From the NCBI GenBank assembly GCA_028818565.1, contig JAPPNV010000443.1:1-35827 (forward strand): DNA of 35,827 bases. Reading direction: 5' to 3'. Below, one piece after another: positions 14,964 to 27,134 of the stretch. A model generated the notes under the pieces. It was given only the letters and a program-made list of their open reading frames with translations, made no database searches and was not told where the DNA came from. The DNA comes from Rhodospirillales bacterium. Lineage in GTDB: Bacteria; Pseudomonadota; Alphaproteobacteria; UBA828. Positions within the stretch are counted from its first letter, which is position 1. Every line of letters begins with the position of its first letter. The translations under genes and the position numbers were made by a program.

Positions 14964-15015
14964 TAATTGTTCCGCTCTACCCAGACTATTCCATGCTGGA
15001 CAAACAAGATTTTAT

Positions 15016-15029
15016 TTGGATCGATCCAA
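15016..15029. promoter_or_regulatory. Probable LacI operator overlapping the -10
   Basis: TTGGATCGATCCAA is a perfect 14-bp palindrome with a central CG, embedded in an AT-rich context (TTTAT on one side, ATAAA on the other). Four of its bases form part of the -10 hexamer of the promoter listed next, a classical repressor position. The repeated core 66 bp away makes a chance palindrome unlikely. Confidence 0.8.
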
Positions 15030-15054
15030 TAAACAGGTCCGAAATGAGTGTCAA
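15026..15054 (-). promoter_or_regulatory. Sigma70-type promoter of the lacI catabolic cluster
   Basis: Read on the minus strand, a perfect -35 TTGACA (15049-15054) is followed after exactly 17 bases by TATTGG (15026-15031) as a -10. The 5' leader to the lacI ATG at 14909 would be about 110 bases and would contain the second operator. The spacing and the operator overlap support the call; the -10 itself matches consensus at only four of six positions. Confidence 0.65.
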
Positions 15055-15235
15055 GTCCGCAGCGGCTGCTCCTCCTGACAACCGACGCCAGTTACCATGA
15101 CCTATTGAGCGAGTCGCGAGAGGTTCGAGTTCGATCCCGCTCGTGCTGGTGGCGGGTATTGCGCCGTTGGTGAGCACTGGATGCTCGCTTGCCTGTCAAT
15201 CGGCTTCGAAGATCACCCCCAATATAGAGTGATTT

Positions 15236-15730
15236 CTGGGCACCCCGACGCGCCATCTGTTTGCCACGATCTCCGGCTTCACCGGGCATGACGTGACCCA
15301 GGCGCAGGCGGTCCGCTCCCGCAAGCGCATTCTTGCAAGGCGCGGCGACGATGACGCCGCAACTTACGGTGCAGAACTCGCTGCGGAGGAGCTGTAGGCG
15401 CGCTGCGACACCTGGTGCGATACTGTCTACGGTCGCTGGTCTCGTGGCGGCCTCGGCAGTGTCTCGCCCTTCACCCACCGTACCTCATGGCCACACCCCG
15501 TGCGCCGGGTCCACGACGAGCGCGCGCTGGACGCACTGCTGGCGGAGCCGGCGAGCGGCGGCTGGCGTACGGTGCGCAAGGCCGGCATCCGCCTTGAGAA
15601 CGCTGACTACATCGCCGGCGAGCTCGGGCCGCTCGTGGGCGAGCTCGTGTGCGTCCGCCGCGATGCCGCAGACACCGACCGGCTCTACGTCTACTTGGCG
15701 TGCGGCGCCTTCGTCTGCGTGGCCGAGGAA
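15236..15730 (+). pseudogene. Mu-type (MuA/TnpA-like) transposase, C-terminal remnant
   Basis: The plus-strand frame holding the 15500 ORF can be read back to about 15236. It shows the late part of a Mu-family DDE transposase: FLGTPTRHLFATISGFTGHDVT (the region after the catalytic Glu), then WCDTVYGRWSRGGLGSVSPF, then the C-terminal beta-barrel domain with ERALDALLAEP, GIRLENADYIAGELGPLVGE and DRLYVYLACGAFVCVAEE. An in-frame TAG at 15395-15397 and a TGA at 15230 interrupt it, and the N-terminal domains and most of the catalytic core are missing. It ends abruptly where the ATPase-like sequence begins in another frame. A dead mobile element. No terminal repeats were found. Confidence 0.75.
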
Positions 15731-23187: not shown

Positions 23188-24132
23188 TCATGCGTCCTCC
23201 CCGAAATTTGCGTGGGCTAGCGTCGCGGCCCCGAGGTCCGCGAGCGCGGACCCGGAGGACTTGAAGAACGTGATTTCCTGTTCACTGCCGCGGCCGGCCG
23301 CGGTTCCCCGGCAGAGGCCCGAAAGGTCGCCGGCGATCGCTTCCTCCGTCAGCGCGCCGGACCGGATCGGCCCGATGATGTCGCCGCTCTCCTTCAAGGC
23401 TCCCTCCGTATCGATGTAGACGCGCGCCCGGCGCACCGCCGCGTCGTCGGCTTCGCGCATGTGGGGCCTGAAGCTGCCGATCAGGTCGAGATGCTGTCCA
23501 GGCCTGAGCCACGCGCCCGCGATCAGCGGATCGATTGCCAGCGTCGCGCAGCTGACGATGTCGGCGTCCGCGACCGCAGCTTCGAGATCCGTCGCGGCTG
23601 CGGCGCGAAATCCTGCGCCATTCAGCCTTCGCGCCAGCCTTTCGGCATTCTCCACATTGATGTTCCAGACCGTGACGTCCTCGATCGGACGCACGGCCCG
23701 AAACGCATCGGCCAGGTTGCCGGCGACCCGCCCTGCGCCGACCACCAGCAGCCGCCGCGCGTCCGCAGGCGCCAGGTAGCTCGCCGCCAATGCGGCGGTG
23801 GCGGCGGTGCGCCGGTCGGTGAGTTCGCCGCCGTCCAACGCCGCCAGGTGCCGCCCGGTCTTCGCATCGAAGAGAAGATAGGACGAGGACACCGAGGGCA
23901 TTCCGGCGGCCGCGTTGCCCGGATTGACGTTCACGATCTTGACCCCGCCGAGCCCCGCCGGGTTCCACGCGGGCATCAGGAGCAGCGCCGCGTCCGGCTG
24001 CCCGTCGAGCGCGATGGCGTGGTGATGCCGCAACGGCGCGGCGGCGCCAACCCGGAACATCTCCCGCAACGCCTCGATCAGCGCGCCGAACGGCAGCAGG
24101 TGTCGGGTCTCTTCGGCACTGAAGACGCGCAT
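23188..24132 (-). CDS. Ornithine cyclodeaminase/mu-crystallin family protein
   Basis: An NAD(P)-dependent protein of 314 residues. Relatives are ornithine cyclodeaminase, alanine dehydrogenase (AlaDH), ketimine reductases and SbnB-type enzymes. It has the substrate-side Lys65 in GGVKIVNVN, the conserved ELTDRRTAATAALA segment (Arg at 107-108), the Rossmann motif VVGAGRVAGN (about 130-139), and DLIGSF near residue 215. I choose the ATG at 24132 (MRVFSAEE), which has GAGGAA upstream, over the one at 24153, which has none. It precedes the lyase and UbiD genes on the same strand but is separated by 438 bases, so membership of that operon is uncertain. Reductive amination or deamination of a 2-oxo/amino acid is the likely chemistry. 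Confidence 0.88.
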   Translation of the reverse strand: MRVFSAEETRHLLPFGALIEALREMFRVGAAAPLRHHHAIALDGQPDAALLLMPAWNPAGLGGVKIVNVNPGNAAAGMPSVSSSYLLFDAKTGRHLAALDGGELTDRRTAATAALAASYLAPADARRLLVVGAGRVAGNLADAFRAVRPIEDVTVWNINVENAERLARRLNGAGFRAAAATDLEAAVADADIVSCATLAIDPLIAGAWLRPGQHLDLIGSFRPHMREADDAAVRRARVYIDTEGALKESGDIIGPIRSGALTEEAIAGDLSGLCRGTAAGRGSEQEITFFKSSGSALADLGAATLAHANFGEDA

Positions 24133-24240
24133 GGTTCGGTTCCTCGATTGCATTGCGAGGGAGGCCCCTCGGGCCGGAGTCTTCCACGTTACGACGGGCG
24201 TCGCCTGTCTCGACCTCGTCGCCGCCCGCCGCTCCCGAAG

Positions 24241-25023
24241 CTAAGTCCTAAGGCTGCCAGCCCGCATCGGCATTTCTGCAATTGCTGAGATGCAATCTTC
24301 GCACTGGCAAGACCATGGATCGTGAAACTCTAGTGTAAAGAGCAGTCGACTCAATATTTGAAGAGCCCACACGTTGAGCTTTCCCCTTTCTACCTTTGCG
24401 ACGAAAAATCGGTAGTCGAGTACAGCACCATATGGGATTTTCTTTTCATCATCCGAAAGGGCAGGCATACACTCGATATACTCTGGGGGGTGGCGACTCT
24501 CGTCTGCCAAGTACTGGTTACAATTTATCGGAAGCGAATGCGGCAGAATTTGTTCTGTGTGTAGGTAATATAGGCCACGCACTATTTTCCACACCACACG
24601 AGTTATCTTGGCGCCATCTTGACGCTTTATTATTTTTCCCTGAGGTAGAAAAAGGCCACTAGGACGAGACTCGAACTCGTCAAGTACACTGAAAACACGT
24701 TTCTTGTTGGGCAAGTGACTGTCAATATCCGCGATAGCCTTGTCGAATACAGCGTCTCCCGCTTCTGAGCCCCGCACAAACGGGACAATACTCGAAACAA
24801 AATACTCTTCATCGCTCTGGTAGTGCTGGTTGCAACTGCCGTGAACGGGAATTGTGACCAGCTGGCTAGGATTACACTTTTTCCGGATTATCGGAGCGAA
24901 CAGCGCTCTTGGCGGGCAATGATCCCTACTGACTGGCTCTGAAAGTGGATGACCACACAAGTAGCAGTGCGTGTGCCCATCCTGGCGGGAGCTTCTACTC
25001 TTGGCAGAATCAGAATCCTTCAT
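24241..25023 (-). CDS. HNH-like zinc-motif protein, low-GC insert
   Basis: A protein of 260 residues with an N-terminal HNH-endonuclease-like zinc motif: Cys20-x-x-Cys23 in HCYLCGHPL, SRDHCPPRALFAP (cf. DHxPPKxLF), and HGSCNQHYQSDEEYF (cf. CNxxxSxDEEYF). A second cysteine group, CQCEDC, is near the C-terminus. Such proteins are common in defence loci and integrated elements, but many are uncharacterised; nuclease activity is inferred. The ATG at 25023 is chosen because the conserved part starts soon after and an AAAGG lies upstream; the track's start at 25158 adds 45 residues of unlikely sequence. Base composition is clearly AT-richer than all neighbours, with different codon use, and the gene lies just beyond the 3' end of a tRNA gene, so horizontal transfer is likely. 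Confidence 0.7.
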   Translation of the reverse strand: MKDSDSAKSRSSRQDGHTHCYLCGHPLSEPVSRDHCPPRALFAPIIRKKCNPSQLVTIPVHGSCNQHYQSDEEYFVSSIVPFVRGSEAGDAVFDKAIADIDSHLPNKKRVFSVLDEFESRPSGLFLPQGKIIKRQDGAKITRVVWKIVRGLYYLHTEQILPHSLPINCNQYLADESRHPPEYIECMPALSDDEKKIPYGAVLDYRFFVAKVERGKLNVWALQILSRLLFTLEFHDPWSCQCEDCISAIAEMPMRAGSLRT

Positions 25024-25176
25024 GCTGCCCTTTCCATTAGTGTTGCGAGGCAGTGCATCGTACCGGCGGGCAGTGAGTCTCCAAGGTTTGCCGGCAAGGG
25101 TAGGGGAACCGAAGCGGATCGTTTTGCCAACTAAACCGGAAACATTCTTGATAATCAATATGTTAACAAAAATGCA

Positions 25177-25251
25177 TGGTGACCCCTACGGGAATTGAAC
25201 CCGTGTCTCCACCTTGAAAGAGTGGTGTCCTAACCTCTAGACGAAGGGGTC
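25177..25251 (-). tRNA. tRNA-Glu (anticodon TTC)
   Basis: Read on the minus strand this folds as a complete tRNA. Acceptor arms GACCCCT and AGGGGTC pair perfectly. The D-arm contains AGAGGTTAGGA. The anticodon stem CCACT/GGTGG (with a G-T pair) encloses the loop CTTTCAA, giving anticodon TTC. The T-arm is ACGGG TTCAATT CCCGT. Discriminator A is followed by an encoded CCA. Length is 75 with CCA. The adjacent lower-coordinate DNA (its 3' side) is an AT-rich insert. Confidence 0.96.
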
Positions 25252-25304: not shown

Positions 25305-27113
25305 TCACGGGTCCGATGGCGGCGGGGCGGGGGCGCCGTCGTCGATGTGAAGCTCGACCGCCCGGGTGCCCCGGCGGCGATCAAGCCGGAGCCGGCCCGC
25401 CAGGTGGAACGGATGCTCCGCGCCCGCCAGCAGCGCATGGCCGAGCGCGCTGTCGGCAGCGCGGAAGGCGATGCCCTTGAGCCGCTTGCCCGAGCGGCCC
25501 GCAAGCTGGCAGCGCACGTGGCCCCGGCCCACGATATCGGCGCGCAGCAGCTGGGCGCCGGCAATGGCGAAGCGGGGTTCCGGGTTTCCCGCGCCGTAGG
25601 GGCCGGCTGCCTCCAGCATCTCGAGCAGGTCCGCCGTCGCGCCTTCGACGCCGAGCGCGCCATCGAGGCCGAGGGTCGGGGCCCGGGCGGCCTCGTCTGC
25701 GTCCGCGCCCAGGCATTGATGCAGGAAATCCTCCAGCGGCGAGAGCTTCGCTCGCTCGACGGTGAAGCCCGCCGCCATCGGGTGGCCGCCGCCGTTGACC
25801 AGCAGGTCCGCCTGGCGCGCGGCGGTGATGGCTGCGCCGATATCGACGCCCGGCACCGAGCGGCACGAGGCCTTGCCGATGCCGCCCGCGCCATCCTCCC
25901 AGGCGACGACGACCGCCGGCCGGTTGTAGCGCTCCTTGAGCCGGCTCGCGACGATGCCGATGACGCCGGCGTGCCAGCGCTCGTCGTGGGCCAGGACCAG
26001 GGGCGCCGACGCAGGCGTGCCGCCGCCTGCCGTCTCCACCTGCTCGATGGCCTCCTCCAGCACCGCCTGCTCGATCGCCTGGCGCTCGCGGTTGAGGGCG
26101 TCGAGATGGCGGGCGATCTCCGACGCCTCCGAGTCGTCCTCGGTCGTCATCAGGCGCGCGCCCAGACTGGCCTCTCCCACCCGGCCGCCGGCGTTGACGC
26201 GCGGCCCCAGGATGAAGCCCAGGTGGTAGACCCCCGGCGGCTCCTCCAGCCCGGCGACATCGCCGAGCGCCCTGAGCCCCACGTTGCGGCGCTGGCGCAT
26301 CATCGTGAGCCCCTGGCGCACGAAGGCGCGGTTGACGCCGGTGAGCGGCACCACGTCGCAGACGGTGCCGAGCGCCACCAGGTCGAGCCATTGCCGGAGG
26401 TCCGGCTCCGCCCGCTCGCGGTACCAGCCTGCCTCGCGCAAGTGCCGGTTGAGCCCCACGACGAGGAGGAAGGCCACGCCCACGGCGGCGAGCTGGCGGT
26501 GCGGGCTCGCGTCATCCAGCCGGTTGGGGTCGATCACGGCGCATGCTTGCGGCAGCCGCGCCTCGGCCACGTGATGGTCGACCACGATCACGTCGAGTCC
26601 GGCGTCGGCGGCGTCTTCGAGCGCGTCGAAGGCGCTGATGCCGCAATCGACCGTGACGACCACCTTCACGTCCTGCGCCGCGAGTATGCGCATGGCGGCG
26701 GCGTTCGGGCCGTAGCCCTCGCGCAGGCGGTCGGGGATGTAGATGGTCGGCGCCTCGGCGACGGCCTCGAAGAATCGGCTGAGCAGCGCGGCCGAGGTCG
26801 CGCCGTCCACGTCGTAGTCGCCGAAGATCGCAATCTTCTCGCCCGCCTCCAGCGCGCGGGCGATTCGTGCGATGGCCCGCTCCATGTCCTTGAGGTGGAG
26901 CGGGTCGGGCAGGAGCCGGCGCAGCGTCGGGTCGAGGTAGTCCGGCGCGTCGTCCGCCGCGATGCCGCGGGCCGCGAGCACGCGCCCGACCAGCTCCGGC
27001 ACCTCGATGGCCTGGGCGAGCGAGAGGCCGGCCATCGAATCGTCGAGCCTTGCGCGCCAGCGCTTGCCGAGCAGCGACCGCTCGACCCCGAGCATCGCCG
27101 CCCCGTCGCTCAT
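25305..27113 (-). CDS. recJ: Single-stranded-DNA-specific exonuclease RecJ
   Basis: The 5'-3' single-strand DNA exonuclease of recombination and mismatch repair, 602 residues, cytosolic. The DHH-family catalytic motifs are clear: GDYDVDGATSAAL near residue 100, VDCGISAFDAL, VVDHHVAEA, and the DHHA1-domain motif NGGGHPMAAGF near residue 435. The N-terminus LGVERSLLGKRWRARL is typical of alphaproteobacterial RecJ. I use the ATG at 27113; a TTG at 27134 right after the glpX stop would add seven residues, and neither has a strong ribosome-binding site, so translation is probably coupled to glpX. The order hom-glpX-recJ is common in alphaproteobacteria. Confidence 0.96.
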   Translation of the reverse strand: MSDGAAMLGVERSLLGKRWRARLDDSMAGLSLAQAIEVPELVGRVLAARGIAADDAPDYLDPTLRRLLPDPLHLKDMERAIARIARALEAGEKIAIFGDYDVDGATSAALLSRFFEAVAEAPTIYIPDRLREGYGPNAAAMRILAAQDVKVVVTVDCGISAFDALEDAADAGLDVIVVDHHVAEARLPQACAVIDPNRLDDASPHRQLAAVGVAFLLVVGLNRHLREAGWYRERAEPDLRQWLDLVALGTVCDVVPLTGVNRAFVRQGLTMMRQRRNVGLRALGDVAGLEEPPGVYHLGFILGPRVNAGGRVGEASLGARLMTTEDDSEASEIARHLDALNRERQAIEQAVLEEAIEQVETAGGGTPASAPLVLAHDERWHAGVIGIVASRLKERYNRPAVVVAWEDGAGGIGKASCRSVPGVDIGAAITAARQADLLVNGGGHPMAAGFTVERAKLSPLEDFLHQCLGADADEAARAPTLGLDGALGVEGATADLLEMLEAAGPYGAGNPEPRFAIAGAQLLRADIVGRGHVRCQLAGRSGKRLKGIAFRAADSALGHALLAGAEHPFHLAGRLRLDRRRGTRAVELHIDDGAPAPPPSDP

Positions 27114-27134
27114 CGAGTCAGGCGCCGGCGCCAA

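Follow-up and report, generated by a model that had tools for sequence, protein, structure and literature searches.

A tRNA-Glu gene and an ornithine-cyclodeaminase-like gene of a Rhodospirillales bacterium are separated by a single AT-rich gene with HNH-like motifs, and this gene has been acquired horizontally. It is best read as encoding a standalone nuclease of the HNH fold, likely a one-gene defence that cuts phage or plasmid DNA, a combined reading to which we give roughly even chances. Catalysis, target, defence role and entry route are what we infer for this gene. The window, i.e. the whole stretch of 35,827 nucleotides that was analyzed, represents contig C170 of a draft assembly (464 contigs, 92% complete; this genome is referred to as G000).

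Coordinates of the HNH-like gene and its surroundings in the window
Feature	Coordinates	Strand	Remarks
ornithine-cyclodeaminase-like gene (ocd)	23188..24153	minus	named from sequence character; far flank of the slot
slot between tRNA-Glu 3' end and ocd start	24154..25176	minus	1023 bp, 51% GC
HNH-like gene	24241..25023	minus	260 codons, 783 bp; best start ATG 25023, stop 24241
tRNA-Glu (TTC)	25177..25251	minus	complete, single-copy
recJ-like gene	25305..27134	minus	named from sequence character; upstream of tRNA-Glu

The open frame of the gene (24241-25158, minus strand) extends 5' of the ATG at 25023 up to a TTG at 25158. The ATG is the likelier start, because a homologue with 45% identity (L083) begins shortly ahead of the same CxxC, and a plausible ribosome-binding site (GGAAAGG) lies upstream of it. 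A promoter and terminator scan at the gene, restricted to the sigma-70 consensus for promoters, found neither, and the sequence downstream folds no better than its shuffles (z 0.04). The initial annotation described the gene as far more AT-rich than the rest of the window, and this is borne out by a GC content of 0.490 versus a window mean of 0.682 (sd 0.037), the minimum among all window stretches of that size. The next lowest value outside the gene's own region in a 500-base profile is 0.60, at positions 15001-15500. At third codon positions, the GC content is 0.50, versus 0.84, 0.92 and 0.94 in the neighboring ocd, recJ and glpX genes. The low-GC tract reaches from about 24250 to the tRNA-Glu, the anomaly being confined to the HNH-like gene and the sequence between it and the tRNA. 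Gene and tRNA together make up the interval 24241-25251, and the description of a complete tRNA with the gene on its 3' side holds, both lying on the same strand.

Comparison of this site among related genomes supports horizontal gain. The initial annotation had named one finding as fatal to its view, the presence of the gene at the same site in all members of the genus. That it is such a core gene is rejected, as protein or two-sequence profile searches detected it in none of the order's 21 other genomes, the seven congeners included. Within the sampled genomes of the class, a homologue of any kind occurs in 8 out of 385, the window's own genome counted. The order recJ, then tRNA-Glu, is conserved throughout the family, and two relatives, G001 and G003, share both flanks with the window (recJ, tRNA-Glu and the ocd-like gene). 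In these two genomes the element is absent from the site, as would be expected of a tRNA island; their slot consists of a noncoding stretch of about 250 bp, common to both and without similarity to the 1023 bp of the window. The simplest reading is that the lineage of the window gained the gene, the old slot content being replaced. In the recJ tree, G000 joins G001 with a support of 0.96, a pairing that favors a recent gain; G003 is placed near both with a low support of 0.365, and the ocd tree is poorly resolved. An assembly chimera, which was also considered, is unlikely, because G001 and G003 have both flanks in unchanged order.

Further congeners differ in what follows the tRNA (all gene names in this comparison are from sequence character). 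Past the tRNA-Glu, G002, G004, G006 and G007 show a different gene order with amidotransferase-like and gluconolactonase-like genes. Directly 3' of the same tRNA, a HigA-like gene is found in G002, a HigBA-like pair in G004, and a low-GC, Cys-containing frame of 89 aa in G006, G007 has nothing there, and G005 carries IS66-like sequence. The slot looks like a variable spot for cargo of one or two genes, and the window offers a well-polarized case of single-gene acquisition at such a spot in one lineage.

As initially annotated, the encoded protein carries HNH-like Cys/His motifs and a C-terminal CQCEDC; the former are CYLC, RDHCPP and VHGSCN, and the latter corresponds to a CxCxxC at residues 239-244. 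The HNH-type zinc site and core comprise C20, C23, H61 and C64, a DH at 34-35, and N65. An alignment of ten family members shows no variation at C20, C23, H35, P37, L55, N65 and G150. Positions 61 and 64 are occupied by C or H in all ten, in keeping with a zinc-binding CxxC...CxxC/H pair, and the invariant H35, the position of the catalytic His, is preceded by D or E in every member. The third motif residue, N65, falls within the helix 62-67 of an AlphaFold model (mean pLDDT 70.6, pTM 0.71), which over the motif predicts a strand (31-35), a second strand (57-61) and this helix, with block pLDDT values of 75-92, as well as a separate C-terminal sheet. The position of the central Asn of HNH proteins is Gln54 here; six of the ten members have N at this position, with E, S or Q in the remaining four. 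As read from the alignment, the order of residues in the ten members is that of the HNH core, with the central Asn replaced by Gln54 in the window protein.

Assignment to a known family is indirect. Queried alone, the window protein reaches the cut-off of no model in Pfam, NCBIfam, PADLOC or PHROGs (best Pfam match DUF6011, E 0.0074). It has no direct match to PF14279 (HNH_5), and its relatives score 15.8-25.8 bits versus a curated cut-off of 27.5. A profile built from the window protein and its nearest relative retrieves the protein L087 (E 1.2e-7), which in turn matches HNH_5 (E 9.9e-6), and one member of the alignment matches the HNH endonuclease family phrog_1808 (E 5e-4); homology to HNH_5-type proteins is therefore stepwise. 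With the whole model, Foldseek returned no significant structural neighbor in PDB and BFVD, and a sequence profile search of PDB hit kinases outside the motif and, weakly, one HNH endonuclease (4h9d, E 1.2), neither of which serves as evidence here. The protein is probably an unstudied relative of a known enzyme class and not new in kind. It belongs to a branch of HNH_5-like proteins for which the four collections named above have no model; this branch is now connected with a larger group whose members occur in prophages and next to restriction and abortive-infection genes.

The nearest relatives show 36-53% identity to the window protein over the matched part. An intact, full-length copy with 45% identity is present in a genome of the same class (G330/JADFMW010000148.1). 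The copy in a Nitrospina MAG (45% identity) contains one frameshift, that in a Desulfobacteraceae MAG (36%) is devoid of the N-terminal motif, and a Microvirga plasmid harbors a fragment with frameshifts, so that three of the four nearest relatives are truncated, frameshifted or split. All four (L083, L084, L085 and L003) are solitary and have no defence neighbors; an IS remnant lies near L083 and transposase-like ORFs near L003, the surroundings otherwise consisting of housekeeping genes. The Nitrospina copy (L084:9971-10671), split by its single frameshift, is likewise a lone AT-rich gene (36-40% GC vs 49%) between nadE-like and elbB-like genes. Scans with the single protein gave no match in the genome and viral contig collections, and phage records gave none either. 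A search with the two-sequence alignment produced three relatives in genomes and none in viral contigs; an 11-sequence alignment was too diverse for use as a query.

Distant relatives, some of them from the viral collection, are the members with neighborhood evidence, and these share only about 16-22% identity with the window protein. A Vsr gene adjoins L007, L080, L088 and L089, and a cytosine methylase gene (Dcm) is present in L007 and L080, the former also having a type II restriction enzyme as neighbor. GHKL, Z1 and AIPR genes accompany L077, CBASS is next to L005, and a SIR2 protein is encoded next to L004. Such neighborhoods make a defence nuclease, as proposed in the initial annotation, plausible, but because the closest relatives lack defence neighbors, a defence role for the gene itself is one we infer. 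The four Vsr-associated members form one branch (DHVPSK type, about 50% identity within) that recurs next to Vsr; L089 is a contig from the viral collection.

Several known systems resemble the gene in part. With HNH_5 (PF14279) it shares a core of the type CxxC...[DE]H.P...NL...CxxCN, intermediate relatives matching the model; it differs by HxxCN in place of CxxCN, by the Gln at the central Asn and by a long C-terminal domain with CxCxxC. Several distant family members weakly match the PADLOC models of PtuB of Septu and PDC-M01B over the HNH core. In L087 the HNH gene comes after an ATPase gene, as PtuB comes after PtuA, but this ATPase is closest to AbiLi and not to PtuA. Unlike Septu (PtuAB), the window gene has no PtuA ATPase partner, its flanks being the ocd-like gene, the tRNA-Glu and the recJ-like gene, and it lacks a PADLOC match. 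HNH nucleases have been described in GHKL (MORC/paraMORC) restriction-modification loci (PMC2292703, PMC8011034). Some relatives likewise occur with cytosine methylase, Vsr, GHKL ATPase, Z1 or AIPR genes; the window gene differs in being solitary and in belonging to a separate branch (about 20% identity). Among the genes associated with integrons in metagenomes, PF14279 endonucleases rank with the abundant ones (PMC7370490). The shared element is an HNH_5-type gene carried singly as mobile cargo, but no attC-like pair (RYYYAAC...GTTRRRY) was found around the window gene.

Regarding the route of entry, the initial annotation favored the remnant or cargo of a larger island, which would have been brought to the tRNA-Glu by an integrase and have decayed since. 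tRNA genes classically serve as attachment sites at their 3' ends, and the slot contents do differ between species, both of which speak for such an origin. However, the contig encodes no phage-type integrase (PF00589), even though the rest of the genome contains 25 matches, and a search of the 92%-complete assembly for the 23-nt tRNA 3' end, with up to three mismatches allowed, recovers just the one copy. The absence of both from view had already been recorded initially and now holds for contig and assembly, respectively, and the window contains no direct repeat of the tRNA 3' end of at least 12 nt. Since the contig is devoid of an integrase and the tRNA 3' end of a second copy, a large integrase-borne island is unsupported; the insert measures about 1 kb with one gene, and the ocd-like gene, at most 90 bp away from the HNH-like gene, is the same neighbor as in G001 and G003. 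Island origin is hence considered rather unlikely. A selfish free-standing HNH gene of the homing type, spreading by cutting and copying itself into empty sites, would fit the solitary AT-rich copies between housekeeping genes here and in the Nitrospina MAG, and the decayed copies in L003, L084 and L085 are as in a homing cycle. Yet the copies occupy unrelated intergenic sites with no single conserved target, no intron or intein host is present, and distant relatives travel with defence genes, which leaves this explanation quite improbable. It is more doubtful still, to the point of being conjecture, that the free-standing family moves as a lone gene into intergenic slots across distant phyla, without integrase, transposase or intron and perhaps with the protein itself cutting the empty site.

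Two other explanations concern the product itself. A descendant of the HNH fold that has no catalytic role, being instead a zinc-binding, DNA-binding or regulatory protein, would agree with Gln54, the extra CxCxxC and the failure to match a nuclease model directly. Against this, H35 and N65 remain invariant over ten diverse members, with an acidic residue before H35 throughout, and the loss of catalysis appears to have only a small chance of being correct. That the gene is dead or decaying and has no current function is suggested by its nearest relatives, three out of four being broken or split, and by the lack of a promoter-like site in the sigma-70 scan; its full-length open frame, the retained invariant residues of the family and the plausible ribosome-binding site argue otherwise, and decay ranks lower in probability than a non-catalytic protein.

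If the preferred reading of a solitary, acquired HNH-fold nuclease is followed, the zinc knuckle formed by C20, C23, H61 and C64 would hold a beta-beta-alpha metal fold, in which H35 would serve as the general base and N65 would complete the active site. The C-terminal beta domain with its CxCxxC may contribute to recognition or assembly. The protein would then cut invading phage or plasmid DNA as a one-gene accessory defence, its gene occupying what may be a small-cargo spot between the tRNA-Glu and the next gene. This makes the protein a sensible candidate for a defence assay.

Other family members were encountered in more complex settings. In L087 (101-2220), an AbiLi-like ATPase gene (E 5e-79) is followed 33 bp on by the HNH_5-like gene in a layout resembling Septu, and the product of the latter bears a C-terminal CxCxxC-like motif. 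L091, L094, L095 and L096 contain family members as apparent cargo of prophage contigs, a designation made by eye only; likewise by eye, the member in L094 lies beside a tail-tape-measure-like gene and that in L096 beside a Zot-like gene of filamentous phage.
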